Virus record (IMG/VR): IMGVR_UViG_3300030225_000017
Location: 1-34,469 of that record
DNA: 34,469 nt
Reading direction: 5' to 3' (one strand)
Source: a virus
Positions within the stretch are counted from its first letter, which is position 1. Every line of letters starts with the position of its first letter. The notes beneath the pieces were generated by a model. That model saw only the letters and a list, made by a program, of their open reading frames with translations. It did not search any database and was not told the DNA's origin. A program made the position numbers and the translations under genes. Shown piece by piece: positions 1,450 to 27,613 of this stretch.

Positions 1450-3258
1450 ATGATCCACGCCTCCGGCATCCTCATTACCACCCCGGCCCGGCAAGCCTTA
1501 TTCTTGAAGCGTGCTCCGGACACGGACAGCCCCGGCACTTGGGCCCTTCCTGGCGGCAAGATTGAGGGCGACGAGACACCTCAGCAGGCCGCCATCCGTG
1601 AGACGGCGGAAGAGACCTCCATCAGCCTCAAGCCTGAGGACCTGACTTTTCTAAGACGTGCCGCGTCTGTCGCTTCGGTGACGCCTGGATCCGAGAGCTC
1701 GGTTGTTCTCCCTTCCGGACCCTCGGATCCAGATGCCCAAGTTGACTTCACTACCTTCACCACCACCGTCCCACAACCAGTGGTCCCGACCCTTTGCCAT
1801 GAACACACGGCCTGGTGCTACGCCTCTCTAGACAATCCACCTGAACCCCTCCACCCTGGCGTGCGGGAGACCCTGACCGCCATGACACGGAACGACGCAC
1901 AAGAGGACGAGCTCTCTGTCGCCAGAGCCATTGCCTCTGGTGACAGAGATAGCCCTCAGCGCTACGACAACGTCACCCTGTTCGCCATGCGGATCACGGG
2001 CACTGGCGTTGCCTACCGCAGTTCCCTCGGCGAGTTTGTCTTCCGCAATCCTAAGGTCTACCTGAATGACGAGTTCCTGGCCCGGTGCAATGGCCTGTCC
2101 GTCATCATGGAACACCCAAAGGACGCGACCCTAAACTCTGACGAGTTCACCGACCGCATCATCGGTTCCATCATGTTGCCCTACATCAAGGGCGACGAGG
2201 TCTGGGGCGTGGCCAAGATCTACGATGACGTTGCTGTAAAGCTCATCGAAGACAAGAAACTGAGCACGTCGCCCTCGGTCGTGTTCCGTGATCCATCAGT
2301 CAACGAGAAGGTTCCGTTGGCCGACGGCAAACAACTCCTGATCGAGGGCAAACCATCACTACTCGATCACCTCGCAGTTTGCGAGATCGGTGTCTGGGAC
2401 AAGGGCCAAACGCCCTCAGGCATCCTCATCAACAACGACTCAACTGACGGAGACAAGACAGTGCCCGAACTCGAAGAAGCCAAGGAAGTTGCTGAAAAAG
2501 ACGCCGCCAAGGCTGACGCCGAGACCGGCGAGAAGCTGGACAAGGTCCTGGCGGCCATGGACTCCCTCCACAAGCGCATGGACGCCATGGAGGCGGAAGA
2601 CGACGAGGAAGAGCCCGAGAACGACGAGGGCGAAGAAGACGAACCCGTCGAGGACTCCGACGAGGACGAGGAGGAAGACCTCGAAGAAGACGAACCTGAG
2701 CCTGTCGTCGCCGACAAGGGCAAGAAGCGTCGTGACTCCAAGAAGAAGGACGGCGAGATGCCTGCCGCTCTCAAGGAGAGCTTGGACAAGAAGGCCGACA
2801 GCGCTGAGGTGGCCGACGCCATCAAGCGCGTCGAGGCCATGATCCCGAAAGAGCTCTCTGATGCAGAACGCGAAGAGATGGCTGGCGCCCAAGCCAAGGC
2901 CGACTCCGTGTTCGCATGCTTCGGCGACAGCGCGCCGCGTCCCCTCAACGGCGAGGACCTGCTCGGCTATCGCAAGCGTCTGGCCGGCAAGCTGCGGGAG
3001 CGCGCTCCCAAGTTCGCCAAGGTCAATCTCGCTGGCATCAGCGATCCTGCTGCCTTTGAGATCATCGAGGGTCAGATCTACTCCGATGCGATGGACGCGG
3101 GCATGAACCCGGCGGAGACCCCGGAAGGTGGCCTGCGAGAGATCGTCAGGACGGACAGCACGGGTCGTCGGATCAGCACCTTCATCGGCAAGCCCGGCCA
3201 TTGGATGGACGACTTCACTGGCCAACGGCGTCGCCTCGTGGGGATCCGTCAGGCTTAG
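1450..3258 (+). CDS. NUDIX hydrolase-DUF2213 fusion, likely capsid maturation protease/scaffold
   Basis: Residues 1-140 form a NUDIX domain: residues 35-58 fit the Nudix box G-x5-E-x7-RE-U-x-EE-x-G-U, except that the usual Gly near the end is Ser. Residues about 155-325 match the DUF2213 family of phage proteins encoded just before the major capsid protein. A His in MEHP (about 222) and a Ser in LSTSPS (about 273-277) are candidate protease residues by analogy with other prohead proteases; this is inference. Residues about 380-417 are an extremely acidic Asp/Glu run, followed by a Lys-rich, probably coiled segment and a conserved-looking C-terminus (about 485-602). The acidic/helical tail suits a scaffold. 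The likely role is procapsid assembly and cleavage; what the NUDIX domain does in the head module is unknown. Confidence 0.85.
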   Translation: MIHASGILITTPARQALFLKRAPDTDSPGTWALPGGKIEGDETPQQAAIRETAEETSISLKPEDLTFLRRAASVASVTPGSESSVVLPSGPSDPDAQVDFTTFTTTVPQPVVPTLCHEHTAWCYASLDNPPEPLHPGVRETLTAMTRNDAQEDELSVARAIASGDRDSPQRYDNVTLFAMRITGTGVAYRSSLGEFVFRNPKVYLNDEFLARCNGLSVIMEHPKDATLNSDEFTDRIIGSIMLPYIKGDEVWGVAKIYDDVAVKLIEDKKLSTSPSVVFRDPSVNEKVPLADGKQLLIEGKPSLLDHLAVCEIGVWDKGQTPSGILINNDSTDGDKTVPELEEAKEVAEKDAAKADAETGEKLDKVLAAMDSLHKRMDAMEAEDDEEEPENDEGEEDEPVEDSDEDEEEDLEEDEPEPVVADKGKKRRDSKKKDGEMPAALKESLDKKADSAEVADAIKRVEAMIPKELSDAEREEMAGAQAKADSVFACFGDSAPRPLNGEDLLGYRKRLAGKLRERAPKFAKVNLAGISDPAAFEIIEGQIYSDAMDAGMNPAETPEGGLREIVRTDSTGRRISTFIGKPGHWMDDFTGQRRRLVGIRQA

Positions 3259-6308: not shown

Positions 6309-6859
6309 TGCCGACGCTGACCCTCGGCGTGATCGAAATACCCTACGAACAGAAGGCTGAAGATGTCCAGCACAAAATCCCCCGGCCACACATCACCAAA
6401 AAGGGAAAGCTCAGCAAAGTCTCAGCTCGAGCTGCCGCCAGAGCCTACCAAAGTCCGTGGCGCCACGGCGAAAGCGGCGGCCAAGACACGGGCACCGTCG
6501 CAGAGTTTCTCGAGGCTCGCTACGGCGTCATGGCGACGTTTTACGAACTTCATGAAGATGAGATAGCGCAGGCCCTGGCGGAAACCTACAACAAAAAGGT
6601 TGAAATGCTGCTCTCGGGCGCACCGGCTGAACAAGTTCTGGAGCAGCCCTTCATCGATCCGATCGCGGTCCTCTTCAACCAGTTCATCGACAACCGGGAG
6701 ATGGACGGCAGACTCGGCGTCCCGACGAAGGCCTCGCTCGAAGGAAAGAGCTCAAGGTTCAAAGCCGGTCGTGGCCCGAAGCCTCGTGTTTCTTTTTATG
6801 ACACCGGTAATTTTGAGGGAAGCATGAGGGCCTGGATAGACGATGCCAACGGTAGCTGA
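6308..6859 (+). CDS. Neck/tail-completion protein (HK97 gp10-like style)
   Basis: I chose the ATG at 6308, which overlaps the upstream stop by one base (TGATG); a longer in-frame start at 6200 would run deep into the previous gene. The 183-residue product has a helical middle (residues about 60-95, TFYELHEDEIAQALAETYN) and a C-terminal block with GVPTKA, SSRFK, and PRVSFYDTGNFEGSMRAW. This pattern recalls neck or tail-completion proteins in DUF3383-type myoviruses, where a Phe-x-Asp-Thr-Gly-x-(Tyr/Phe) motif precedes an Arg-Ala-Trp. The role is to join the finished head to the tail. Family recognition is from memory. Confidence 0.65.
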   Translation: MPTLTLGVIEIPYEQKAEDVQHKIPRPHITKKGKLSKVSARAAARAYQSPWRHGESGGQDTGTVAEFLEARYGVMATFYELHEDEIAQALAETYNKKVEMLLSGAPAEQVLEQPFIDPIAVLFNQFIDNREMDGRLGVPTKASLEGKSSRFKAGRGPKPRVSFYDTGNFEGSMRAWIDDANGS

Positions 6860-15703: not shown

Positions 15704-16066
15704 GTGAGGACCTACGGTCGCGTCTATGACGAGTATGACAACCCGAGCTGGGTCGAGGTCGTCACAGACAACAATGGCGCAAATGACTTCGTCTTCTTGA
15801 CAACCTTGATCCAGTGCCTGCTGCTGAATCTTGGCGAGTCTCCATTCTACGCTAACTATGGCATCCCAGGTCAACAGTCTGTGATCCAACAGATCTTTCC
15901 GGACTACTACGTCGTCCAGACCCAGACGCAGTTCGCTCCTTTCTTCGCGGCCTTGATAATCAATAAGTTGGCCCTTCGCGACGCAGAGGGTGTTCCTTAT
16001 CCGGCCTACAAGGTCAATGTGACGACCAATCAAGGCGTCGGCGTGGAGGCGACAGTCCCGATATGA
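15704..16066 (+). CDS. Baseplate wedge protein, gp25-like slot
   Basis: The GTG at 15704 abuts the previous stop. The 120-residue product starts with MRTYGRVYDEYDNPSWVEV, then FVFLTTLIQCLLLNLGESPF, YANYGIPGQQSVIQQIFPDY and a C-terminal YPAYKVNVTTNQGVGVEATV. A small alpha/beta protein directly before the baseplate J-like gene is where gp25/gpW-type wedge proteins lie, and the early LNLGESPFYANYGI resembles their N-L-x-T-x-x-G-E-x-P-x-x-P/Y-x-Y-G motif. It would link baseplate wedges to the first sheath ring. It overlaps the J-like gene by four bases. Confidence 0.72.
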   Translation: MRTYGRVYDEYDNPSWVEVVTDNNGANDFVFLTTLIQCLLLNLGESPFYANYGIPGQQSVIQQIFPDYYVVQTQTQFAPFFAALIINKLALRDAEGVPYPAYKVNVTTNQGVGVEATVPI

Positions 16067-17487
16067 CTACTGTTCCTCTCGTCGTGGTCCCCTCTACCGG
16101 CCTCCAACCTGCCAACCCGACCGCCGTCCTCAACACCTTGATCTCGAACGTAACGGAGACCAACCCTGGCTACACAGCCAACTTGCCGGGTTCTATGATC
16201 GAGGACATCTCCTCGACAGACGTTGCTGCTATACTCCTGATGGACGCGGCGCTGGTCGACTTGGTCAACTCTCTGACGCCTTATGCGGCCAACCCGTTCC
16301 TGCTCAATCAACTTGGGCAAATGTACGGAGTTGCCCAGGGCGTCGGAGTCAATACGAATGTATATGTTGTGTTCGAGGGGCCAGCGGGGCTCGTGATCAG
16401 CCAAGGCTTCACGGTCACCGACGGAACCTACCAATATATCATTCAAGACGGCGGCGTGATTCAATCTGGAGGCTACTCGCAGCCGCTCTATGCCCTGGCC
16501 ACCGTCTCAGGTTCTTGGGCTGTCCCGGCCAACACCGTCAACCAACTGGTGACCTCTGTCCCTCTCGGCGACACCCTGACTGTCAACAACCCTAACCCTG
16601 GCACCCCGGCGACAGGCACGCAGACCGAAGAGCAATATCGAGCACAGGTCATCCAGTCTGGCCTCGCTTCCTCACAAGGAATGCCGCGCTATCTGAAGTC
16701 GCTGATCCAAGCCATACCGGGCGTACTACCTCAGCTGGTGTCTGTGGTGCAGATCAACGGCGGCGGCTGGGAGGTCATCGTCGGTGGCGGCGACCCCTAC
16801 GCAGTGGCCTACGCCATCTACGAAGCTTTGTTTGATGTCTCTTCCTTGGTCGGCTCGACCACCTACGTCACGGGCGTGACCAACGCCAACCCTGGCGTGG
16901 TGACGACCAACCTCAACCACGGCTTCACGACTGGGCAGAACAACGTCCACATCGCTGGCGTCAACGGAACCACGGGCGTCAACGGTGGCCCCTACACCGT
17001 AACGGCCATCACGGAAAACACCTTCAGCTTCGGGGTCAACACGACGAGTTCTGGAGCCTACACGAGCGGCGGGACCGTCACGCCAAACACCAGAACCTTG
17101 AGCATCAACATATCAGACTACCCCGACACCTACACCATCCCCCTCGTGATACCTCCGGTTCAAACGGTCGTCATCCAGTTGACGTGGAATACAAGCTCTC
17201 CAAACTATGTGTCACCGACTGCTGTCGCTCAGCTAGGCGCCCCGGCCCTGGCTCAATATGTCAACTCCGTGGCCGTCGGCGCTCCCATGAACTTGTTCGA
17301 GCTTCAGAACGTGTTCCAGATTGCTGTCGTGAGCCTGATATCGACCCAGTTTCTGACGCGTATGGTCTTCACGGTCAGCATCAATGGTGTCGACGTCAGT
17401 CCAGAAAGTGGCACAGGCATCATTGCCGGCGACCCAGAAAGCTACTTCTCTTGTTCGGCCAGCGGCGTGACGATAAGTCAGGGCTAA
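16063..17487 (+). CDS. Baseplate wedge protein, J/Mu gp47-like
   Basis: The 474-residue protein has the baseplate J arrangement: an N-terminal helical region with PGSMIEDISSTDVAAILLMD and NPFLLNQLGQMYGVAQGVGV, a beta domain (YVVFEGPAGLVISQGFTVTD), the typical GTQTEEQYRAQVIQ, and the RYLKSLIQAIPGVLPQLVSV helix. Residues 268-339 are an extra beta domain (TTNLNHGFTTGQ, VNGGPYTV, SGGTV) similar to those inserted in the cement and sheath proteins. The core resumes with PPVQTVVIQLTW and ends in a C-terminal Gly/Ser tail. It forms the hexagonal baseplate belt whose rearrangement triggers sheath contraction. Confidence 0.85.
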   Translation: MTTVPLVVVPSTGLQPANPTAVLNTLISNVTETNPGYTANLPGSMIEDISSTDVAAILLMDAALVDLVNSLTPYAANPFLLNQLGQMYGVAQGVGVNTNVYVVFEGPAGLVISQGFTVTDGTYQYIIQDGGVIQSGGYSQPLYALATVSGSWAVPANTVNQLVTSVPLGDTLTVNNPNPGTPATGTQTEEQYRAQVIQSGLASSQGMPRYLKSLIQAIPGVLPQLVSVVQINGGGWEVIVGGGDPYAVAYAIYEALFDVSSLVGSTTYVTGVTNANPGVVTTNLNHGFTTGQNNVHIAGVNGTTGVNGGPYTVTAITENTFSFGVNTTSSGAYTSGGTVTPNTRTLSINISDYPDTYTIPLVIPPVQTVVIQLTWNTSSPNYVSPTAVAQLGAPALAQYVNSVAVGAPMNLFELQNVFQIAVVSLISTQFLTRMVFTVSINGVDVSPESGTGIIAGDPESYFSCSASGVTISQG

Positions 17488-17491
17488 GACC

Positions 17492-18085
17492 ATGCAAATC
17501 TTTGCCAACAACGCCACTTCGGCCCTTGCTTCAGCGGTCACTGCTTCAGCCACAACCATTTTCCTTGCGGCTGGCTCCGGGGAGCTCTTCCCTAGCCCTG
17601 CCGCCAACCAATACTTTGCCTTGACTCTCAATGACCTAGCCACCGGCCTGTTGACCGAGATCTGCTACTGCACCAGCCGCAACATTGATACTTTGACGGT
17701 CATCCGGGCGCAAGAGGGCACAACGGCCATAGCCTGGAGCGCGGGCGACCTCGCTGCAAACAAGATCACAGCCGGCACGCTGGCAAATTTCAACCAAACC
17801 ATCGTCAACCCAACGCCTCTTGGCTATGGAAAGATCACCAACCTGACGGCGGCTGTTGGGTTCTCTGCCATCTCCGGGGGCATCCCGGTCGGCGCAGCCT
17901 ATGCCATGGTCCAGTCTGAGGGAGCCAATGTCCGCTGGCGCGATGACGGGACAGCGCCTACCGCGCTCCTAGGCATGCCAATCTACGCAGGAGCATCGCC
18001 TCTGGTGTTCTCAAATAACCTGGCAGCCATAAAGTTCATACAGGTCGCGCCGACCGCAACCCTGGACGTGAGCTTCTACAGCTGA
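17492..18085 (+). CDS. Two-module tail fibre/baseplate-associated protein
   Basis: This 197-residue protein joins two modules. Residues 1-105 (MQIFANNATSALASAV, IRAQEGTTAIAW, AGDLAANKITAGTL) match the start of the fibre gene at 20090. Residues about 106-197 (LGYGKITNLTAAVGF, EGANVRWRDDGT, AAIKFIQVAPTATLDVSFY) match nearly all of the gene at 21026. Both modules recur widely near phage fibres; the second resembles a small beta-jelly-roll-like virion protein. It lies four bases after the J-like gene and overlaps the next gene by one base. The role is probably attaching or capping fibres at the baseplate. Confidence 0.7.
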   Translation: MQIFANNATSALASAVTASATTIFLAAGSGELFPSPAANQYFALTLNDLATGLLTEICYCTSRNIDTLTVIRAQEGTTAIAWSAGDLAANKITAGTLANFNQTIVNPTPLGYGKITNLTAAVGFSAISGGIPVGAAYAMVQSEGANVRWRDDGTAPTALLGMPIYAGASPLVFSNNLAAIKFIQVAPTATLDVSFYS

Positions 18086-18762
18086 TGTGGCCGCCGCCAG
18101 CAGCAGGTAGCTCGGTTCAAAATGTCATACCGAGTTACCTCTACGTCCAATATAACGACGACAGCGACCTTCAAGCCTTTGTCGCCTCATACAATTCCTA
18201 TGCTCAGACGTATCTGAACACCTTCAATCAACTTAACCTGCCTGTCTATACTAACGGCGGCATATCTGGGACGCTCCTCGACTGGGTCGCGACTGGGCTC
18301 TATGGTTATCCGCGCCCTGGCCTGCCGACGACAGGCACGCCTGAAATTGGCCCATTCAATACCTACACGCTCGATGGCCTGGCCTTCAACGCCACAATTC
18401 CTCCGGTTGGGCAGACCTACTACGCCACCACCGATGACATCTACAAGCGATGCCTGACTTGGCACTTCTACAAGGGCGACGGCAAGGTCTTCAACATAAA
18501 GTGGCTGAAGCGGCGCATCATTCGGTTCCTCTACGGCATCAATGGTTCCAATCCCAACATCGACCAGACTTACGGCATTAGTGTTGCCTTCACAGGCGAC
18601 TTTGCCATCACCATCACGGTCCCGGTCTTGCCGGCCGCGACCGTCTTCAAGGAAGCCATCAGAGCGGGCATTCTTGAGATGCCTTTTCAATTAACGACCA
18701 CCGTGGTCATAGCAGCGGGCGGTGCCTTTGGCGACTTCACGTTTGGGGAAAGCCCTTTCTGA
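18085..18762 (+). CDS. Late baseplate wedge/fibre-adaptor protein
   Basis: The 225-residue protein has an N-terminal Pro-rich lead followed by YNDDSDLQAFVASYNSYAQT, LNTFNQLNLPVYT and ISGTLLDWVATGLYGYPRPG. This pattern is found in phage baseplate proteins in the gpI/gp48-like position after J. The middle includes DDIYKRCLTWHFYKGDGKVF and LKRRIIRFLYGINGSN; the C-terminus is beta (DFAITITVPVLPA). In this position proteins bind the tail fibre N-terminus to the wedge. It overlaps the preceding gene by one base and the following fibre gene by about 40 bases. Confidence 0.7.
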   Translation: MWPPPAAGSSVQNVIPSYLYVQYNDDSDLQAFVASYNSYAQTYLNTFNQLNLPVYTNGGISGTLLDWVATGLYGYPRPGLPTTGTPEIGPFNTYTLDGLAFNATIPPVGQTYYATTDDIYKRCLTWHFYKGDGKVFNIKWLKRRIIRFLYGINGSNPNIDQTYGISVAFTGDFAITITVPVLPAATVFKEAIRAGILEMPFQLTTTVVIAAGGAFGDFTFGESPF

Positions 18763-19654
18763 TCTCTTTCTGATCATTCTTTGTGTCTTGATTGCCCCAA
18801 CCTTGCTGGAGGGGCAATCGGTCCCGAATGGCGGCACGATCACGAATGGCCAAATTTGGACGGCGGCGCAGTGGAACGCGGCATGGGAGTCGAAGACCGA
18901 CTACCCAGTCAGCGCTAGCGCCATTGGAACAGGGACTTTGGCGGCTGCCTATGGAGGCACCGGCGCCAACAGCCTCACATCTCACGCCGTTGTCCTTGGC
19001 AATGGCACCGGTGCTTTGTATCCTGTCGGTTCCTTGGGGACGTCCGGTCAATGTTTTGTAAGCAACGGAGGGAGCTCTGACCCTTCATTTCAAAGTTGTC
19101 CGGGGGGCGGGAGCGGCGTCAGCTCGATCACCGGATCGAGCGGCGTCAGCGCCTCTGCCTCAACGGGTGCTGTGACCCTGAGTCTATCTACGATCGCTGC
19201 CGGAACCATTCTGGGGAACAACACCGGGTCCTCTGGTGTGCCTCTGGCCCTGACTGCGGCTCAGGCCGCATCCATCCTGGCTGGTACCGGATCTGGAACC
19301 CTTGCAGCCGGAAATGACACCCGGTTTGCTGGTCCGACTCAGAACTCGCAGTCGGCCTCATACACCTTGGTAATCGGAGATGCCGGTGGCCAGATCTACC
19401 ACCCTTCGAGTGATACTACGGCCAGAACCTGGACAATCCCAGCGAATTCTTCCGTGGCGTTTCAAGTTGTGACCAAGATCGACCTCGTCAACGATTGTAG
19501 CGCCGGGATAGTGACCATAGCCATCACGAGCGACACGCTGGTCTACCTTCCTTCTGGGGGGACAGGCTCTAGAAGCCTAGCGCCTTGTGGCGAGGCCACC
19601 TTGACAAAGGTCGGCGCGACACGCTGGGTGATCGCTGGGGCAGGCCTTTCCTGA
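18722..19654 (+). CDS. Tail fibre-like protein with signal-peptide-like N-terminus
   Basis: The start is uncertain: GTG 18722 overlaps the previous gene by 41 bases, and TTG 18743 is an alternative; neither has a clear ribosome binding site. Either form has a hydrophobic segment LFLIILCVLIAPTLLEGQS, like a Sec signal peptide. The 310-residue body is fibre-like: GGTGANSLTSHAVVLGNGTG, STIAAGTILGNNTGSSG, AGNDTRFAG and a C-terminal TRWVIAGAGLS. The GGTG-LTSH block recurs in the gene at 22056. Four Cys lie outside the hydrophobic segment. It is a likely receptor-binding or fibre-shaft component; the signal-like start is odd for a protein assembled in the cytoplasm. Confidence 0.7.
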   Translation: MPLATSRLGKALSDLFLIILCVLIAPTLLEGQSVPNGGTITNGQIWTAAQWNAAWESKTDYPVSASAIGTGTLAAAYGGTGANSLTSHAVVLGNGTGALYPVGSLGTSGQCFVSNGGSSDPSFQSCPGGGSGVSSITGSSGVSASASTGAVTLSLSTIAAGTILGNNTGSSGVPLALTAAQAASILAGTGSGTLAAGNDTRFAGPTQNSQSASYTLVIGDAGGQIYHPSSDTTARTWTIPANSSVAFQVVTKIDLVNDCSAGIVTIAITSDTLVYLPSGGTGSRSLAPCGEATLTKVGATRWVIAGAGLS

Positions 19655-20088
19655 TGGCTAGGTGGGGCGTCATCGCCTTCATCGCCTGTTGTGTGACTTT
19701 TGCTCTGGCGGTCTTTTTCTCCAGGCCAGTTGACGCCCAAGCCTCGACTTGGGGAGCGATATATTCAACGTTCGCTCCTGTCGTGGCCGTGGTGACGCCA
19801 ACCTCTGCCACCGGCAACAGCACAGTGACAGGGTCTGTGTCGACCAATACCGTCGTCCCTTCTGCCACTGGAGGGACCGGCACCTATAATTATCTATGGG
19901 CCTATGTGTCTGGAGATTCAGCCATCACAATCAACTCCTCGATCTCGACCCTCGCTCAGTGGAGCGGCCATGTCAACGGCGCTATACCGACAAGAGCTGC
20001 TGTATGGTCGTTGACGGCGACAGACACGTCAGGGAACATGGGCTCTACGACCTTGAACGTGTCCGTCAACTACAACAACCCGCACTGA
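19654..20088 (+). CDS. Small Ig/PKD-like protein with N-terminal signal or anchor
   Basis: I chose the ATG at 19654, which overlaps the preceding stop (TGATGG), over the longer in-frame GTG at 19585. The 144-residue product starts with MARWGVIAFIACCVTFALAV, continues to a possible signal-peptidase site after RPVDAQA, and ends as a beta-rich domain. The body has TGGTGTYNYLWAYVSGDS, then AVWSLTATDTSGNMGSTTLN, a classic PKD/Ig strand pattern with a Tyr-x-Trp core. It has no Cys after the hydrophobic segment. It may be a fibre accessory or surface-adhesion domain; family and location are inferred. Confidence 0.68.
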   Translation: MARWGVIAFIACCVTFALAVFFSRPVDAQASTWGAIYSTFAPVVAVVTPTSATGNSTVTGSVSTNTVVPSATGGTGTYNYLWAYVSGDSAITINSSISTLAQWSGHVNGAIPTRAAVWSLTATDTSGNMGSTTLNVSVNYNNPH

Positions 20089-20089
20089 C

Positions 20090-21010
20090 ATGACCATCCT
20101 CTTTGCCAACAACGCCGTCTCGACGCTCGCAGGCACACTGTCTTCAGGAGCGACAACTGCCAACCTTGCCACAGGGACCGGGGCCTTGTTCCCCAATCCA
20201 ACGGGCGGCGACTTCTTCGTGATGACGTTCCTGGATGCGGCTACGCAGACCACGCGTGAGATCGTCCACTGCACGGCCCGTAGCACAGACAGCCTGACCA
20301 TCGTTCGGGCGCAAGAGGGAACGACCGCGTTGAGCTGGGCCGTCGGCGACATCGCGGCCAACCTGTGGACGGCGGGCCAAGCTGGAGCTTTGCAGCAAGG
20401 CAACAACGCGGCGGGTGGCGACCTGACCGGAACCTATCCAAATCCAACAATCGCGGCTGGAGCCGTAACAAACTCAAAGCTAGCGGCCAACTCTGTCGGC
20501 TCGTCCAACATCATCAACAACTCCGTCGCTAATGCAGACCTTGCCCAGGCTCCGGCCGAAACGCTAAAAGGCAACCTGACCGCCGGCACCGCGACCGTTC
20601 AAGATGAACCTATTGCCACCGTCATCGGAGCTCTCGGTTTTAACTCGGGCGGGTCGACTGCGATCGTTACACCCGGAGCCAGTTCATCGCCCGGCACAGT
20701 AGGCTCCTCAGGATGGTGGACAGACGCCAATGGCCTGACGCACCAGTGGGCCTACATTCAACTTGAGGACTTTGGCGGCGGCTCAAGCGCAACGACGACC
20801 TGGACTTACCCAGTTGCTTTCACAGGCACAGGCCCAATCATAGTTCGCAGTCAGAACTGCGCGGCTCTGGCTGGCCAGCCAATCAGCCCTTCGTCGCTTG
20901 GGATCGCTGATCCAGCGACGATAGGAAAGATCAACTCAAAGTGGCAGGTCCACAACACCAACGTGACAGGAGCCCTTTGTTGTTTCCTCTTGGAAGTCGT
21001 TGGCTTTTAG
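20090..21010 (+). CDS. Tail fibre with gp53-like receptor-binding end
   Basis: The 306-residue protein begins with the same module as the gene at 17492 (FANNAVSTLAGTL, RAQEGTTALSWAVGDIAANL). A shaft follows with GGDLTGTYPNPTIAAGAVTN and alternating SKLAANSVGSSNIINNSVAN repeats, which are typical of phage fibre stems. The C-terminal about 110 residues contain SSGWWTDANGLTHQWAYIQL, the W-W...Q-W pattern of gp53/gpS-like fibre tips, and end in CCFLLEVVGF. No signal peptide is present, unlike its neighbours. It starts two bases after the previous stop. The C-terminal domain is the probable receptor binder. Confidence 0.78.
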   Translation: MTILFANNAVSTLAGTLSSGATTANLATGTGALFPNPTGGDFFVMTFLDAATQTTREIVHCTARSTDSLTIVRAQEGTTALSWAVGDIAANLWTAGQAGALQQGNNAAGGDLTGTYPNPTIAAGAVTNSKLAANSVGSSNIINNSVANADLAQAPAETLKGNLTAGTATVQDEPIATVIGALGFNSGGSTAIVTPGASSSPGTVGSSGWWTDANGLTHQWAYIQLEDFGGGSSATTTWTYPVAFTGTGPIIVRSQNCAALAGQPISPSSLGIADPATIGKINSKWQVHNTNVTGALCCFLLEVVGF

Positions 21011-21025
21011 AAACCGGAGATCAAA

Positions 21026-21412
21026 GTGGCAGGCTTCCCCAACTCACAGTCAAATCCTCAGGGCGCGATCCCTGTCATCCTCGTCAATACCACCTATGAC
21101 TTCTACACGGCAGCAGGGTCAAGTGGCGGCGCGGCAGCCCCCTACCAAGCCACGCCCCTTGGCTATGAGCAGATCACCAACCTGTCGGCAGCTGTTGGGT
21201 TCGCTTCCGTCCCAACAGGGGCGACCTTCGCCTACGTTGAGGTTGAGGGTGCAAACGTCCGTTGGCGCGACGATGGGACCAACCCTACGGCGTCTGTTGG
21301 TATGCCTGTCTATGCTGGGTCAGCTCCGACTCTGTTCTCAGGCGATCTTGCCGCGCTCAAATTCATCCAAGTCGTGGCCACAGCAACCCTCAACGTGAGC
21401 TTTTACAAATGA
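21026..21412 (+). CDS. Single-module small fibre-associated virion protein
   Basis: It starts at GTG 21026, six bases after GGAG. The 128-residue protein has a Pro/Gly lead and then the module LGYEQITNLSAAVGF, EGANVRWRDDGTNPTASVGM, LAALKFIQVVATATLNVSFY. This is nearly the same as residues 106-197 of the gene at 17492. The module is common as a stand-alone small virion protein in phages of many hosts. Its stop overlaps the ATG of the next gene by four bases. Probable role: fibre or baseplate decoration. Confidence 0.72.
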   Translation: MAGFPNSQSNPQGAIPVILVNTTYDFYTAAGSSGGAAAPYQATPLGYEQITNLSAAVGFASVPTGATFAYVEVEGANVRWRDDGTNPTASVGMPVYAGSAPTLFSGDLAALKFIQVVATATLNVSFYK

Positions 21413-22059
21413 TAAGGAACGCAATACTCGCTGTGGCTGGGATCGCCCTTGTGGCGAGCGGCGCGTTTGCCGCGCAACCCGTCTCCCAGCAAGACAGTGC
21501 CGGTGGAGACGCAACCGACACAGTCAACCATGCTGTCAATGTCAACGTTGTGGCGGGTGGCGGATCAACCACCATCACCGGCCCCCTCGGTTCCAATACC
21601 ATCGCGCAATCGCTCGCGGTCACGGCGTCTGACGGGTCAATCGTCACTCTTGGCCACATATCCGATACCATCTCTACTCCCTCGCTCATGGGCTACAATC
21701 TGGGGAGCAAGACCGACCTTGATTCGATTTTGGCGTCTCTGGCGACGCCTGCTCCGACCTACCCGAATGGTTACACAAGCACCGATGGCTCGGGCAGTCT
21801 GACAGCGGGAACGACAGCGAGCTTCACGACTATTCTGGCGTCCAGTTCCACGCGCCATGATTGCACCATCCAAAATCCGAGCACGGCTACTGAGGTCATA
21901 TATATCCATTCGACCACAGCCAGCCCGACCACGGCCAACAGCTTCACCCTCACGCCCGGATCGACGTTCAAATGCGCCGGCGGGGGGATCGTTATCACAG
22001 ATGCGATCTCGGCGTCCGCCGCGACCAACCCGCATCCCTATGTTCTGGTGTCACAATGA
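21409..22059 (+). CDS. Fibre-region protein with Sec signal peptide
   Basis: I chose the ATG at 21409 (ATGA overlap with the previous stop); the frame is open further upstream but inside the previous gene. The 216-residue product has a textbook signal peptide: a basic start (MIRNA), a hydrophobic core (ILAVAGIALVASGAF), and a cleavage site AFA before AQP. The mature part is Ser/Thr/Gly-rich and beta-prone with SNTIAQSLAVTASDGSIVTL and a C-terminal jelly-roll-like block (HDCTIQNPSTATEVIYIHS, FTLTPGSTFKC, GGIVITDAISASA) resembling small fibre-associated domains. The two Cys in that block could pair. It overlaps the next gene by four bases. Confidence 0.7.
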   Translation: MIRNAILAVAGIALVASGAFAAQPVSQQDSAGGDATDTVNHAVNVNVVAGGGSTTITGPLGSNTIAQSLAVTASDGSIVTLGHISDTISTPSLMGYNLGSKTDLDSILASLATPAPTYPNGYTSTDGSGSLTAGTTASFTTILASSSTRHDCTIQNPSTATEVIYIHSTTASPTTANSFTLTPGSTFKCAGGGIVITDAISASAATNPHPYVLVSQ

Positions 22060-23090
22060 GGCGTGCCGTTGCCGCGCTCTGCGCGTGTCTGCTGACTGCC
22101 CCGGCTTTCGCGCAGTCGATTAGTGGCCCCGGAATTGCCACGCCTGTAACCGTTGCCAATGGCGGCACAGGATCGGCCACCCTCACAAGTCATTCCGTAG
22201 TCGTCGGCGCGGGCACGTCCGCCGTCACCCTCGTCGCGCCGTCCTCAACTACGGGCTACGTCCTGACGAGCAACGGGGCTTCGGCGGACCCATCGTTTCA
22301 GGCGTCCACAGGGGGCGCGACGCTCGGAGCCAATACCTTTACCGGCCTGCAAACCATGGCGGCCGCAACAACGGCAGGCGCGGGCCTCAACCTGCCGCAA
22401 GGCACGGCCCCCACCAGCCCTAACAACGGTGACTTCTGGACGACATCGGCAGGTGCTTATGTCCGCATCAACGGAACGACCGTGGGGCCTTTGGTGGCGT
22501 CTGGAACGGGATCGCCAACAAACTTGAACCTTGGCGCCTACGCATCGGCGACCGCTGTTCAGTTCGCGGTCGGATCCACGTTCACAGCAACGGGCGCTTA
22601 CAGCTACGGTTTCACGATCCCCGGCGCTTACACCTACACCTTCCCGGCCAATACCGGAACGCTGGCGCAGCTTAATTTGGCCCAGAGCTTTAGCAACACG
22701 CAGACGTTTTCGACCGCCATCGCGGTATCCGGCACCGCCGCCATCCAGTTTCAGGGCGTCAAGGTTCTGCAAAATACCGTTCCGACGATCACGGCTACTT
22801 CTTGTGGGGGTGCGAGCGCAACGACCTCGATCACGCACGCGGCCGGCAGCGTCGCATTTGACTACACCGTCTCGGGAACAATCAGTGCGTCCACTTGCAC
22901 CGTCGCTTTGCCGGCCGCGACTAACGGCTGGGCTTGCGACGCTCACGATACAACCACCAATTCCGAAGTCGTCGAGGAAGCCTCGTTCACCACCGCGCAG
23001 GTAGTTTTCAACTACTACGCCAGAACTACGGGCCTTGGGACCAATCCGACGACCGGAGACGTAGTGGTTGTAAAATGCGCGGCCTTCTGA
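22056..23090 (+). CDS. Tail fibre-like protein with Sec signal peptide
   Basis: The ATG at 22056 overlaps the previous stop by four bases. The 344-residue protein begins with MRRAVAALCACLLTAPAFAQ, a convincing signal peptide with AFA before Q. Next comes a fibre module (VANGGTGSATLTSHSVVVGA, STTGYVLTSNGASADPSFQA) shared with the gene at 18722. The stem contains GANTFTGLQTM, PQGTAPTSPNNGDFW and NLAQSFSNTQTFSTAIAV. The C-terminal domain has four Cys and ends in VVVVKCAAF. This is a phage fibre by composition; the signal peptide is unexpected and shared with its neighbours. Confidence 0.72.
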   Translation: MRRAVAALCACLLTAPAFAQSISGPGIATPVTVANGGTGSATLTSHSVVVGAGTSAVTLVAPSSTTGYVLTSNGASADPSFQASTGGATLGANTFTGLQTMAAATTAGAGLNLPQGTAPTSPNNGDFWTTSAGAYVRINGTTVGPLVASGTGSPTNLNLGAYASATAVQFAVGSTFTATGAYSYGFTIPGAYTYTFPANTGTLAQLNLAQSFSNTQTFSTAIAVSGTAAIQFQGVKVLQNTVPTITATSCGGASATTSITHAAGSVAFDYTVSGTISASTCTVALPAATNGWACDAHDTTTNSEVVEEASFTTAQVVFNYYARTTGLGTNPTTGDVVVVKCAAF

Positions 23091-23092
23091 CT

Positions 23093-25543
23093 ATGCGTGC
23101 CATCATTGCCGCCATCGCCGCCCTGTTGATCGGGCTTGCGCCGGTTCACGCTTCAGCCAGTCGGTTCCGGCTAATCTACACTGGTAGCCAGGCTTTCCCG
23201 CCGATCAATCTCAACAGCGTGACCTATCCGTTCGGTGGCTACACCCCTCGGGGATTCGGCGGGGTCCACCTGAGCAATCAAGACGTTTCGTCCTACGGCG
23301 CTTTTGTCTTTGGTCTTGGCCTTCAGTCCGCAGGAGCCACGGTTCCTACCTCATGGACGATCTACCAGACGAGCGGGACATCAGGCGACTGGCAGCTAGG
23401 CCAAGGGTCGGGAACGACCATCCCAAGCACCGCAGGGGGCGCTCTGACGGTCGCTGAGGGCGCAGGAGCCTTGACGCCTACGCCCAGCGCCCAGGGCGTC
23501 ACGAACCATCTTAACGGCGGCCCTTATACCTTCAGCATTGTTGCCAAGAACTCCCTCGGAATAGGAGGCACGCCGGGGACGATCACGATCACCGTTCCGG
23601 GCGGCGCGACGCCCACGCCGGTTGTCAACTATGGCGATCTTGATGCCTCTACAGGCGTGGTTCCTACAGGGTTTTTGACCAACAATACGACGAACCCGAC
23701 GATCCAGTTTTCGGTCGGAATCAACCGAACCGTGAACCTCGGAAGCGGATCCAACAAATACCTGTTCACGCAGGACTTTGACTGCTCGGGCGGCTACCCT
23801 TGCATCTTCACCTGGGCCGACACGGCTCGCCCTGGCGGCCTTCTCGCGTTTGCCCAAAGCGGGCTTATGCGAAACATCCAGATCAACAACATCATTCTGA
23901 CCGGCGAACCCGCCACCGCAAACAATTTCCCCAGCGCCATTTACGGCTTTTGGACGTTCAGCAACACGAACGACTACACCAACACCAATGCCGGGATCAC
24001 GATGAACAATGATGGCGTAAATTTCGCCTCATTTCCGAACCCGACTTATCAGCAGAACGCCATCGTGGCGTCAAATGACTACCCGCGCGCCGCCGCTTCG
24101 GCACATGATACGTCCGCTACCGTCTGCCTGACGGTCAATAGCTTTGTCGGAACCAATGTTGTTTCGGGCTTCGCGGAGGGAGGCAAGATCGGCTTCAACT
24201 GCAATCCAACCGCGCCGGTTGTGTTCAACGACCTCTACATCAACGGTTTCGCCGGCAATGCGTTCTTCGTTTACAACGGCTGTTATCAGCTGACCCATAC
24301 GATTGTCATTCAGCCAGCGCGGGTAAACAACCAGCACCTTGACTATTTCCAGGCCGCGAATGGGGGCAATCCTCAATGCTGGATCGTCAACAAATTCATC
24401 GGCATTCAAGGCAACGGCTACGCCAATGCGCAGGGGCCGCCCTTTGCGGGCGGCAACGACAATTTTACCGGCTATATTTCGGGCGGTATTTTGCATGTCG
24501 TAACCAACACCACGGCCATCATTCCCAGCACCCGCCTTCTTTCCGCCAGCTGGACCGGCACGGCGCAGATCGCCAAGCTGTTGTCAGGCACCGGCGGTGC
24601 GGGAACAACCGCAAGTTTCTTCGGCTTCACGCCCGCCGACGTTGGCTCTGCTGGCGCTCCGATAACTTTTGCGAGTGCGGGCATGGGCCTCGTGCAATTG
24701 AACGATCTGATCTACAGCGGCGGCGAAACCAACGGCATGTCGTTCAACGGCGGCTTTGGTGACGTAGGAACGACGAACTACATCCAGAACGTAACGGTCG
24801 TTGAATACATCACAACGACCGCCGATGTTCCCTGGACCTACTTCAACGCGACGGTGAACAGCGCCACGAATATCACTATCACCGCCACTCCGACCCCCAT
24901 CGACATCGGCTTTGGCCCCCTTGAGACGATCTACTATGCGGACGGCAGTTCAGTGGGATCGCCTACGCCGTCATGGGCCAACTGCGCGCCGCCTTCCGCA
25001 GGCCACTGTAGCGCCGTCGAAAACATGCCGAAGGTTGGCGGCGTCTATGGTTGGAACGCCAATTTCCGCTCGACACAGGACTACCCGTCCTCGGTTCCGT
25101 GGATACAGTTTACCAAAGTCGGGCAGACATCCTCCACGCCTTCATGCACCCTGCCGATCACCTACTATGGCGGGACCACGACGCTCACAAACATCTTTGG
25201 CACGGGCCGGATCGTCAACGGCACCGCATCACCTTTCAGCAATAGTGACGGGTGCTTCAGCAGCCCCGTCAATTATCCGCCGCCAAACACGACGGTCACG
25301 AACGCCGCGAGCGCCAGCGCAAACCACGCCAACCAGGCCACGCTGTTTGCCAACGGAGACCCGACCGCAACCATGGGCACCGCGACATGGACGGGCCTCT
25401 CTGCTGCGGGTATCGAGGCCAAGGTGCTTATGCTGCTGACGCCGAGTGGCTCCATGCCCAAAGACGGCTCAGGCAATCCAGCCGGGGCGGTGACGGTCTG
25501 CCCGCCACCAGGGACGCCGCCCTGCACAGGAGTGTGGAAGTGA
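23093..25543 (+). CDS. Large secreted-type tailspike/adhesin
   Basis: The start could be ATG 23093 or ATG 23075 (16-base overlap); neither has a good ribosome binding site, and I prefer the former because it gives a normal signal peptide (MRAIIAAIAALLIGLAPVHA). The 816-residue protein has a small N-terminal domain and an Ig-like region (about 100-190, PYTFSIVAKNSLGIGG, TITVPG). A long repetitive beta region from about 200 to 600 follows (LMRNIQINNIILTG, FNDLYINGFAGNAFFV, VQLNDLIYSGGETNGM); it looks like a right-handed beta-helix as in tailspikes and polysaccharide lyases. Twelve Cys are in the mature part, many spaced for pairing (CSGGYPC, CPPPGTPPC). It is probably a receptor-degrading spike. 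No catalytic residues were identified. Confidence 0.68.
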   Translation: MRAIIAAIAALLIGLAPVHASASRFRLIYTGSQAFPPINLNSVTYPFGGYTPRGFGGVHLSNQDVSSYGAFVFGLGLQSAGATVPTSWTIYQTSGTSGDWQLGQGSGTTIPSTAGGALTVAEGAGALTPTPSAQGVTNHLNGGPYTFSIVAKNSLGIGGTPGTITITVPGGATPTPVVNYGDLDASTGVVPTGFLTNNTTNPTIQFSVGINRTVNLGSGSNKYLFTQDFDCSGGYPCIFTWADTARPGGLLAFAQSGLMRNIQINNIILTGEPATANNFPSAIYGFWTFSNTNDYTNTNAGITMNNDGVNFASFPNPTYQQNAIVASNDYPRAAASAHDTSATVCLTVNSFVGTNVVSGFAEGGKIGFNCNPTAPVVFNDLYINGFAGNAFFVYNGCYQLTHTIVIQPARVNNQHLDYFQAANGGNPQCWIVNKFIGIQGNGYANAQGPPFAGGNDNFTGYISGGILHVVTNTTAIIPSTRLLSASWTGTAQIAKLLSGTGGAGTTASFFGFTPADVGSAGAPITFASAGMGLVQLNDLIYSGGETNGMSFNGGFGDVGTTNYIQNVTVVEYITTTADVPWTYFNATVNSATNITITATPTPIDIGFGPLETIYYADGSSVGSPTPSWANCAPPSAGHCSAVENMPKVGGVYGWNANFRSTQDYPSSVPWIQFTKVGQTSSTPSCTLPITYYGGTTTLTNIFGTGRIVNGTASPFSNSDGCFSSPVNYPPPNTTVTNAASASANHANQATLFANGDPTATMGTATWTGLSAAGIEAKVLMLLTPSGSMPKDGSGNPAGAVTVCPPPGTPPCTGVWK

Positions 25544-25692: not shown

Positions 25693-25965
25693 TTGTCGCA
25701 GAACAGTGGGGACAGATCTTTGGCGGGCGCATTTGCAAAGATTGACGCGCATGAGGAATTGTGCTCAGAGCGTTACAGGGGCATCGACGAGAAGCTGAAA
25801 TGGATTATGACCGGACTCGGCGTCTTGTTCATCGGCCTGCTGGGTTGGATGGCCTTCCAACTCTATCTTCTTGAGCCTTTGCGTGTGGCGGCCCAGCTTC
25901 AGAACAATCAGCCGCAGCAGGTCAACTCGACCATCATCCACTCATCCGGAGGGACCGGGAAGTGA
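25693..25965 (+). CDS. Single-helix membrane protein, lysis-region (XhlA-like style)
   Basis: The TTG at 25693 follows AAGGGG by about 8 bases; no ATG gives the full N-terminus. The 90-residue protein has a helical soluble part (FAKIDAHEELCSERYRGIDE), one membrane segment about residues 36-55 (WIMTGLGVLFIGLLGWMAFQ) and a polar Gln/Asn-rich tail. Helix-plus-one-TM proteins just before the holin and endolysin resemble haemolysin XhlA-type lysis accessories or small holins. Its stop overlaps the next GTG by four bases. The lysis role is inferred from position. Confidence 0.62.
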   Translation: MSQNSGDRSLAGAFAKIDAHEELCSERYRGIDEKLKWIMTGLGVLFIGLLGWMAFQLYLLEPLRVAAQLQNNQPQQVNSTIIHSSGGTGK

Positions 25966-26312
25966 ACACGAACAAAGCCGATGCCATTGCCAAGTTCATC
26001 CCCGGCGTCCGCGTCTGGGTGATGTTCGGCATTTTCGGCCTGGCCTTCAAGATCCTTACCATGGTTGAGGACCACGAGGACCTTCTCCAGAACACTCAGT
26101 TCATGACCATCGCCGTCCTGATCCTCGGCGGCTCGGGCCTTGGCGCGGTTGTCGCCTTCAACTTCGGTGGCACGGCCACCGGATCCAAGGTCATGGAACA
26201 GCAGAGCAACGCCGTCATCAACTCGACCCCGATCTCTTCCGACCATCCGCAGGAGGTCACGGTGAAGTCCAGCGCGGCTGATCCAGTGATTACGAAAGAG
26301 ACCGCAGCGTGA
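25962..26312 (+). CDS. Holin candidate
   Basis: It starts at GTG 25962 (GTGA overlap). The 116-residue protein has two hydrophobic segments, about 15-33 (GVRVWVMFGIFGLAFKILTM) and about 46-67 (QFMTIAVLILGGSGLGAVVA), and a polar tail. Two-TM holins with this size and position, directly before a muralytic enzyme, are common. It would make the inner-membrane hole that releases the endolysin. The upstream one-TM protein could instead be the holin and this a partner; sequence alone does not settle it. Confidence 0.65.
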   Translation: MNTNKADAIAKFIPGVRVWVMFGIFGLAFKILTMVEDHEDLLQNTQFMTIAVLILGGSGLGAVVAFNFGGTATGSKVMEQQSNAVINSTPISSDHPQEVTVKSSAADPVITKETAA

Positions 26313-26827
26313 GTTCCGCCAACTGGCCCAACTGCCTGGCCTTTACCCTTCAAGAAGAGGGCGGCTACGTCGACAACCCCCGTGATCCAGGGGGCGTGAC
26401 TAATCTTGGCGTGACGATTGCCACCCTCAGCCACTACGAGGGCCACCCTGCGACACCGGAGGACGTTGCAAATCTGACTCCGGAGCAAGTCGCCCCGATC
26501 TATCACAGCCTCTACTGGAATGTGGTGCAGTGTGACGGCCTAAAGACCGGCGTCGACCTGCTGGTGTTCGACGCCTGCGTCAACTCCGGCCCGGGACGGG
26601 CCGCCAAGACGCTTCAACAGGCGGCAGGCGTGACGGCTGATGGCATCATTGGACCCGCAACCTTAGCCGCCGTCAATGCCTTGAGCGCACCAGTCCTCGT
26701 GGCGAACTTCACCTCGGCTCATGAGGCGTTCTACCGTAGCCTATCGACCTACGACACGTTTGGCAGAGGGTGGGACAACCGCGCCCAGGCCGCCGCCGCA
26801 AAAGCCCTGGAGATGGCCAATGGTTGA
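26309..26827 (+). CDS. Endolysin, GH108-type glycosidase with C-terminal binding domain
   Basis: It starts at GTG 26309 (GTGA overlap with the holin candidate). The 172-residue protein has the GH108 signature EEGGYVDNPRDPGGVTNLGV near the N-terminus with candidate catalytic Glu17, then YHSLYWNVVQCDGLKTGVDL and FDACVNSGPGRAAKTLQQA. The C-terminal part (GVTADGIIGPATLAAVNA, then EAFYRSLSTYDTFGRGWDNR) fits the peptidoglycan-binding type 3 region usually paired with GH108. It cuts the glycan backbone of the cell wall at lysis. No signal peptide is present, so export depends on the holin. Confidence 0.9.
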   Translation: MSSANWPNCLAFTLQEEGGYVDNPRDPGGVTNLGVTIATLSHYEGHPATPEDVANLTPEQVAPIYHSLYWNVVQCDGLKTGVDLLVFDACVNSGPGRAAKTLQQAAGVTADGIIGPATLAAVNALSAPVLVANFTSAHEAFYRSLSTYDTFGRGWDNRAQAAAAKALEMANG

Positions 26828-27020
26828 TCTTGACAAGATCATTGATCAGGTCTTTGACGAAGACGCACACTTCACCAAGGTTGTGGATGGCAGGACCGTG
26901 CCCGCCTTTCCGCAGACCAAAGGCCAGTTTGGCTACTGGATAGGCCGCGTCTGCGCAACGCTTGATGGACCCCGCGACATCCTCGAGGTTAACAAGGCCG
27001 TCGGAGCCCGATTGGCATGA
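26820..27020 (+). CDS. Small unknown protein in lysis cassette
   Basis: The 66-residue product starts at ATG 26820, overlapping the endolysin by eight bases; longer in-frame starts lie inside the endolysin. It is polar and mixed alpha/beta (MVDLDKIIDQVFDEDAHFTK, then QTKGQFGYWIGRVCATLDGP). It has no membrane segment. Its stop overlaps the Rz-like ATG by four bases (ATGA). The function is unknown; the tight coupling ties it to the lysis genes. Confidence 0.6.
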   Translation: MVDLDKIIDQVFDEDAHFTKVVDGRTVPAFPQTKGQFGYWIGRVCATLDGPRDILEVNKAVGARLA

Positions 27021-27613
27021 TGGTCAAGGTCCTTCAGACCCTCATTGGCCTCTTCTGCGCGACGGCGCTCTATTGGATGGGTCTCGGCACCGGCCTGTGG
27101 TACGACCGCCGCCCTCCGGACTATCCCCAGTTTCATGTCCACGTGCTGTTCTTCCATTGGACCTGGATCGCGCCGCAGAGTCTCAAGGCTCAGTTGACCA
27201 CCATCAAGGCAGCTGAGGCCAAGGCAACGGCCCATGCCAAGGTGGTTGGCGCTGAGCAGTTACAAATCAGCGCCAGTGCAGACACACGAGAGCGTGCGGC
27301 GCAGGCGAAGATCGTTTACATAACCAGGACCCTCACCAAGGAGATCCCCGTTGTTATCACTCCTCAAGTGGACCGTAACTTCCCTCTGCCTGTTGGCCTT
27401 GTGCGCCTGCACGACGCCGCAGCAGACGGCGTTGACTTGTCCGCACTTCCCCTCCCCACCGGCGTCACTAATGACAGCCCCAGTCCCATTACAGCCAGCC
27501 GCTTTGGGTCTGTCATCGTCACCAACTATGGGGAATGTCGCGCCGACGCCGAAAGGTTGACCGCGCTCCAAGGCTGGATCACCGCACAGCAACGGGCCAT
27601 GAACGGTCCATAA
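27017..27613 (+). CDS. Inner-membrane spanin, Rz-like
   Basis: The 198-residue protein has one N-terminal membrane segment (about 5-27, VLQTLIGLFCATALYWMGLG) and then a periplasmic helical stretch (SLKAQLTTIKAAEAKATAHA) typical of i-spanins, followed by a C-terminal portion with a Cys (YGECRADAERLTALQGWITA). Fully inside it, in the +1 frame, lies a lipoprotein ORF with Rz1 features. The pair spans the periplasm and fuses inner and outer membranes at the last lysis step. Position after the endolysin fits. The length is a little above the usual 150. Confidence 0.8.
   Translation: MMVKVLQTLIGLFCATALYWMGLGTGLWYDRRPPDYPQFHVHVLFFHWTWIAPQSLKAQLTTIKAAEAKATAHAKVVGAEQLQISASADTRERAAQAKIVYITRTLTKEIPVVITPQVDRNFPLPVGLVRLHDAAADGVDLSALPLPTGVTNDSPSPITASRFGSVIVTNYGECRADAERLTALQGWITAQQRAMNGP
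27351..27560 (+). CDS. Outer-membrane lipoprotein spanin, Rz1-like, nested in Rz
   Basis: It starts at TTG 27351, about 7 bases after AAGGAG, and lies wholly inside the Rz-like gene in the +1 frame. The 69-residue product has a signal peptide with lipobox (SLCLLALCAC, lipidated Cys20 expected) and a Pro-rich mature part (CPHFPSPPASLMTAPVPLQP), which is the usual Rz1 look. As in lambda, the o-spanin is embedded in the i-spanin reading frame. The lipidated N-terminus would anchor in the outer membrane and bind the Rz C-terminus. Confidence 0.82.
   Translation: MLSLLKWTVTSLCLLALCACTTPQQTALTCPHFPSPPASLMTAPVPLQPAALGLSSSPTMGNVAPTPKG

Follow-up and report, generated by a model that had tools for sequence, protein, structure and literature searches.

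The window analysed here is a stretch of 34,469 nucleotides, positions 1 to 34,469 of IMG/VR virus record IMGVR_UViG_3300030225_000017, a 34.5 kb record of a myovirus-like phage that encodes tail sheath, baseplate hub and baseplate J proteins. In the tail region a signal-less fibre gene at 17492 is followed by a mixed block of genes with and without signal peptides, and then by endolysin and spanin genes. Our subject is five genes of this block, starting at 18722, 19654, 21409, 22056 and 23093, which carry fibre-type domains and lie in tail-operon position between the baseplate and lysis genes. An initial annotation had proposed that their products begin with Sec-like signals, which would be odd for fibres. 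All five open reading frames were found at these positions on the plus strand, and the interleaved fibre genes at 20090 and 21026, described as signal-less, indeed lack a signal peptide, as does the gene at 17492.

Signal peptides were called with a Python rule of our own, not SignalP, that considers charge, hydrophobic core and the -3/-1 site. With one start per gene it was passed by six of the 36 window genes, namely those at 19654, 21409, 22056 and 23093, the spanin gene at 27017 and a borderline case at 6843; a more liberal version that allows multiple starts flagged 17 genes out of 309 from the upstream modules of related phages, of which at least two have real signal peptides. The features of a Sec/signal peptidase I substrate (basic n-region, hydrophobic core, small residues at -3 and -1) are thus present in four of the five genes, and the annotated Sec-like N-termini stand for these four, while the one at 18722 fails on its cleavage part. 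The starts of the four are well fixed, because each overlaps or nearly abuts the preceding stop codon within a few bases and is coupled to it. Predicted cleavage points, marked by a slash, are VDA/QAS (19654), AFA/AQP (21409), AFA/QSI (22056) and VHA/SAS (23093), so that the AFA or VHA type of site reported for three genes is found in the last three.

The first gene (18722..19654) encodes a fibre-like protein of 310 aa; its start codon, GTG, lies within the 3' end of the 18085 gene. Its signal-like segment (residues 1-31, 18722-18814) contains the strongest hydrophobic core of all, LFLIILCVLIAPTLL, and a weak cleavage site (LEG/QSVPN). After this segment the protein opens with QSVPNGGTITNGQIWTAAQWNAAWESKTDYP, a version of the PTAAQWN-family domain, hereafter the (P/W)TAAQWN N-domain, which profile A2 finds in the near-identical contig (E 1.8e-15). 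Its tail-fibre-type C-terminal domain (204-309) also occurs in signal-less proteins that Limnohabitans phage YIMV22061 and Manatee Spring phages encode in their structural regions. The second gene (19654..20088, 144 aa) has a predicted signal peptide at residues 1-28 (19654-19737) and a PKD-like beta domain, for which PF22352 gives E 0.0025, below that family's cut-off. The third (21409..22059, 216 aa) has its predicted signal at residues 1-21 (21409-21471) and two cysteines in the mature part; 17 of its first 32 residues, signal included, are identical to the related protein L006:12043, and the two diverge afterwards. The fourth (22056..23090, 344 aa, signal at residues 1-19, 22056-22112) is a fibre-like protein with a GGTG-type repeat and a four-cysteine C-terminal domain; it matches part of the 18722 product at 36% in a self-search, and its C-terminal motif resembles those of relatives L054 and L111, the latter a signal-bearing fibre of an Acetobacteraceae metagenome-assembled genome (MAG). 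The largest (23093..25543, 816 aa, signal at residues 1-20, 23093-23152) is a beta-rich spike-like protein with twelve cysteines after the signal, exactly as annotated. A full-length homologue, L032:16461, is 31% identical and also signal-bearing. No PDB match was obtained by profile search, and because an AlphaFold model built from two sequences reached a predicted local distance difference test (pLDDT) score of 26.6, we make no fold claim for this protein. Among all five, neither a lipobox with cysteine at +1, as in Llp-type lipoprotein exclusion factors, nor a muralytic domain of the signal-arrest-release (SAR) or signal-peptide endolysins (Pfam or PHROGs), nor a match to the phrog_12796 profile of Bcep781-type tail fibres was detected.

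The annotation had suggested examining whether the signal is conserved in other phages, and this is the case across many relatives. Anchoring on the phrog_8212 protein of gene 18085 brought together 48 viral loci (loci bear L numbers throughout). Downstream of this anchor, signal-bearing fibre-like genes occur in L006, L016, L017, L024 and L032, and there are none in L007-L013. A first genome scan with the same protein recovered no relative. The PTAAQWN family was found in IMG/VR by DNA pattern: two strict patterns located the N-domain SSPNLxxGQVPTAAQWNSYFAxKQD in about 75 environmental phages. In the first scan a signal peptide stood directly before the domain in 31 of 35 distinct members, counting the borderline L064 and L079, whose hydrophobic leaders failed the rule; of the 42 new loci recovered with a second, wider pattern, 39 had a signal. 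Among the signal-bearing members signal-peptide identity is only 17%, against 12% for shuffled sequences, and identity of the mature N-domains is 73%, while alanine occupies position -3 in 25 of 31 and position -1 in 29 of 31. Four signal-less homologues start 13-16 residues before TAAQWN, where the predicted mature ends lie at 12-19, and the signal-less L134 and L170 start in a similar zone. The signal is therefore conserved in character and not in sequence, and it sits at a domain boundary at which the signal-less homologues begin. L147 appeared signal-less at first look and probably has a frameshifted signal peptide; L161 may belong to another family.

In 26 other matching contigs the domain profile found one copy each, and only the window's near-identical contig yields a second, marginal match. 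By tblastn the family gave no hit in 50,697 phage records or in plasmids. One strict pattern had a single match in 84,980 genomes, in an Acetobacteraceae MAG and likewise signal-bearing, and a profile search of 120 Acetobacteraceae genomes added one signal-less copy. For six loci (L138, L153, L154, L164, L168 and L175) the IMG/VR taxon numbers are presumably of the isolate-genome kind, and cultured lysogens may exist for them. One contig, G424, which carries L107, also encodes a signal-bearing protein (MKKYWYSIMTAMLFAAPAFA/ILQ) at 25792-26529 on the minus strand, in the head gene region, and L024:1109 is alike in kind; since such a protein occurs among head genes, signal peptides in these phages may extend beyond tail fibres.

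Disulfide-forming exported proteins tend to have cysteines in even number. The mature counts in the window are 4, 0, 2, 4 and 12 in gene order, and that of the 18722 product becomes 5 once the cysteine of its signal is included. Cysteine parity had been called weak, but it becomes significant with enough relatives. Taking one mature signal-bearing protein per 45%-identity cluster, the count was even in 29 of 34 clusters (p 3.9e-5), although these are not fully independent because an N-domain motif is common to them. The effect vanished when signal cysteines were counted (18 of 36 even), and signal-less fibres were even in 6 of 20 (Fisher p 7e-5). Control residues (Trp, His, Met, Lys, Phe) were split near half, as by chance, and cysteine density did not differ significantly between signal-bearing and signal-less fibres (p 0.11), so that parity alone separates them. 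The signal rule chose the proteins, and parity itself is independent of that rule. Because the pattern was first noticed in the initial set, the count was repeated on a later, separately fetched sample, where 19 of 22 were even (p 4e-4) and 12 of 22 with signal cysteines. That the evenness is confined to the mature part is the signature expected of extracytoplasmic disulfides, and it supports cleavage followed by folding with disulfides outside the cytoplasm.

The closest link to the virion comes from two relatives, L115 (contig G424, 32 kb) and L118 (contig G421, 21.7 kb), in which both tail-fibre candidates are signal-bearing and no signal-less candidate was seen; the other fibre-like compositions on these contigs are, by eye, sheath and head-module proteins. 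Here the signal sits on a phrog_12796 tail fibre (E 5e-36 and 1e-32, respectively). The two fibres are identical at 107 of 129 positions (83%) after the signal and at 6 of 24 within it. When aligned, signal-less relatives have their start methionine at the position of the first mature residue. In isolates such as Bcep781 and Pseudomonas phage Orisa03 signal-less fibres hold the equivalent gene position. For L107 the model of the mature N-domain is confident over the last 55 residues only, and this part matches phage tailspike N-domains (Foldseek probability 0.99-1.00, E 0.01-0.14).

The neighbouring genes, all on the plus strand, agree with a late tail module. Upstream lie a baseplate J-type wedge protein (16063..17487, phrog_6 E 9e-18), the signal-less tail fibre at 17492..18085 (phrog_8469 tail fiber protein, E 8e-21) and the synteny anchor at 18085..18762, a phrog_8212 (E 2e-58) or DUF2612-type baseplate-end protein whose counterpart in Pantoea phage PdC23 is annotated DUF2612. 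The interleaved gene at 20090..21010 is a signal-less tail fibre (phrog_8469, E 3e-18) with a DUF5907 repeat (PF19264, 29.1 bits, above cut-off), and that at 21026..21412 is a signal-less fibre module that by eye resembles the C-terminal half of the 17492 product; the two share the motif ITNL.AAVGF...GANVRWRDDGT. The 17492 product looks as if the N-part of 20090 had been joined to the C-part of 21026, and this suggests duplication and splitting of fibre modules. The lysis cassette (25693..27613) comprises two small holin-like genes, endolysin 26309 and spanin-like 27017, by profile matches that include phrog_315 endolysin (E 2e-45) and phrog_4952 "signal peptide motif" (E 1e-20); nested in 27017 is a TTG-started frame (27351-27560) with a lipobox-like LCAC that resembles a nested Rz1 outer spanin. 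Elsewhere, the baseplate J-type protein has a domain matching Pfam E1_FCCH above cut-off (40 bits), and the gene at 1450-3258 encodes a phrog_6216 protein whose N-terminal 70 or so residues are a fused segment matching profiles of Nudix hydrolases. The window proteins that were searched are present as 100%-identical copies in IMGVR_UViG_3300029915_000057, a 44 kb contig.

Cultured representatives are also at hand. The Acetobacter phages phiAO1 and phiAX1 carry signal-bearing fibre-like genes (PhiAO1_380 and PhiAX1_440) in their structural regions; these belong to other sequence families than PTAAQWN and are annotated only as hypothetical. Both are mitomycin-inducible temperate phages, in a description from which the terms tail fiber and signal peptide are absent (PMC8566455). 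In the Komagataeibacter phages phiKM1 and phiKX1 the translated fibre-region genes showed no signal peptide.

It is probable that the late fibre or spike proteins of the window are exported, stay in the periplasm until lysis and act outside the cell, most likely docked on tails. Export with signal cleavage is, judging from these sequences, very likely, and the surprise voiced in the initial annotation is strongly supported by the conserved signal architecture and by the even cysteine counts restricted to mature proteins. Docking is a tentative proposal that may hold, and we suggest with a little more reserve that the virions of some tailed phages might be built in two compartments and joined at or after lysis. 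Each protein would be made as a precursor whose Sec signal peptide is removed by signal peptidase I, the strongly supported step; mature chains would then fold in the oxidising periplasm with their cysteines paired, which is supported. They would wait there until lysis by holin, endolysin and spanin, and then act on surface polysaccharide, most likely docking through the N-terminal domain on tails assembled in the cytoplasm. Capsid and tail would thus be cytoplasmic products, and the receptor-binding fibres would be exported to the periplasm, with cleavage of the signal and disulfide bonding there. Of the options listed in the annotation, addition after lysis fits best because the virion-type N-domain is intact behind the signal in two relatives, and decoys or superinfection exclusion fit less well.

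The strongest competitor, appreciably less probable than the reading just given, is that the proteins are exported and never form part of the virion, being soluble adhesins or depolymerases that are periplasmic and freed at lysis. They could clear exopolysaccharide, release progeny from debris or benefit sibling phages as a common good. The coexistence of signal-less tail fibres in the window and several relatives suits this view, and so do enzyme domains on signal-bearing proteins: a PF14099 polysaccharide lyase in L006:17410 (82 bits), a GDSL lipase/esterase in L016:12424 (36.4 bits) and a borderline pectate-lyase-like match in phiAO1_380. With the variable beta-rich repeats of the block, the lyase and the esterase fit action on surface polysaccharide. 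However, the fibre of L115 and L118 keeps a complete virion-type N-domain behind its signal, which is hard to explain without virion contact, and no other tail-fibre candidate was seen on those contigs; we favour docking over a purely free factor for this retained domain.

It is improbable that the fibres block the host receptor, from the periplasmic side or at the surface, and so bring about superinfection exclusion or lysogenic conversion. Export, divergent C-termini and the occurrence of two such genes in the inducible temperate Acetobacter phages would suit receptor blocking. Yet the genes are late and lie within the tail operon, and no lipobox or membrane anchor follows the cleavage site. 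A search limited to integrases of the tyrosine type was positive for just one of ten signal-fibre contigs; this speaks against a chiefly lysogenic role, although phiAO1 and phiAX1 are temperate. That the signals are lookalikes, uncleaved hydrophobic segments or wrong starts in GC-rich DNA on cytoplasmic proteins, is highly improbable, for despite the weak site of 18722 the Ala-X-Ala sites are conserved, signal character persists without sequence identity, signal-less start points coincide and even cysteine counts appear only in the predicted mature part.

Several points weigh against export with docking as a whole. Signal calls come from a home-made rule instead of SignalP and from sequence alone, and 18722 failed the cleavage part of that rule; we treat it as having a signal-like start with a weak cleavage site, in a family where signals are the rule. 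The evidence for docking comes from relatives only. Signal-less tail fibres coexist with the signal-bearing proteins in the window and in L006, L017, L024, L032 and L117, and those of the window could be its real receptor binders. Contigs may be incomplete and another fibre missing from them, and proteins that look like plain enzymes (the polysaccharide lyase and GDSL esterase) need not dock. Finally, late export would keep the fibres in a different compartment from immature virions until lysis.

Tail assembly in phages normally takes place within the host cell, and the fibres that set host choice are assumed to be made and attached there, so export and disulfide bonding of fibres in a phage family would challenge this assumption. 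The evidence points to a previously undescribed route by which phages produce or employ fibres, and if true, phage use of host Sec extends beyond lysis enzymes. For annotation, exported polysaccharide-active phage proteins may pass for metabolic genes though they are members of a fibre module. The family is frequent in IMG/VR and nearly absent from named collections, and with two cultured Acetobacter phages carrying signal-bearing fibre-like genes the question is testable now. The open-licence papers searched contained no report of signal-bearing tail fibres, exported endolysins being found instead, and given that scope this negative is weak evidence of novelty.

Three known systems invite comparison. 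Bcep781-like myoviruses (phrog_12796; Burkholderia phage Bcep781 gp31, Orisa03) share the N-terminal domain with L115 and L118, and the gene position is equivalent, after baseplate J and a structural protein and before lysis; unlike L115 and L118, the six isolate homologues checked have no signal peptide, and the window's five proteins fall outside phrog_12796. The tailspike depolymerases phiAB6, APK16 gp47 and Belisarius gp86 are matched by the confident part of the L107 model, and polysaccharide-active domains also occur among the signal-bearing proteins here; these are solved virion spikes, and we know of no signal peptide on solved tailspikes. The third system is that of the signal-peptide type (fOg44 Lys44) and SAR-type endolysins, which are Sec-exported late proteins (PMC6116005). 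These are lysis enzymes, whereas the window proteins are fibre-like with no muralytic domain found, and the predicted segment in the window is cleavable, in contrast to the SAR-type segment; what they have in common with our proposal is that late phage proteins make use of the host Sec pathway.

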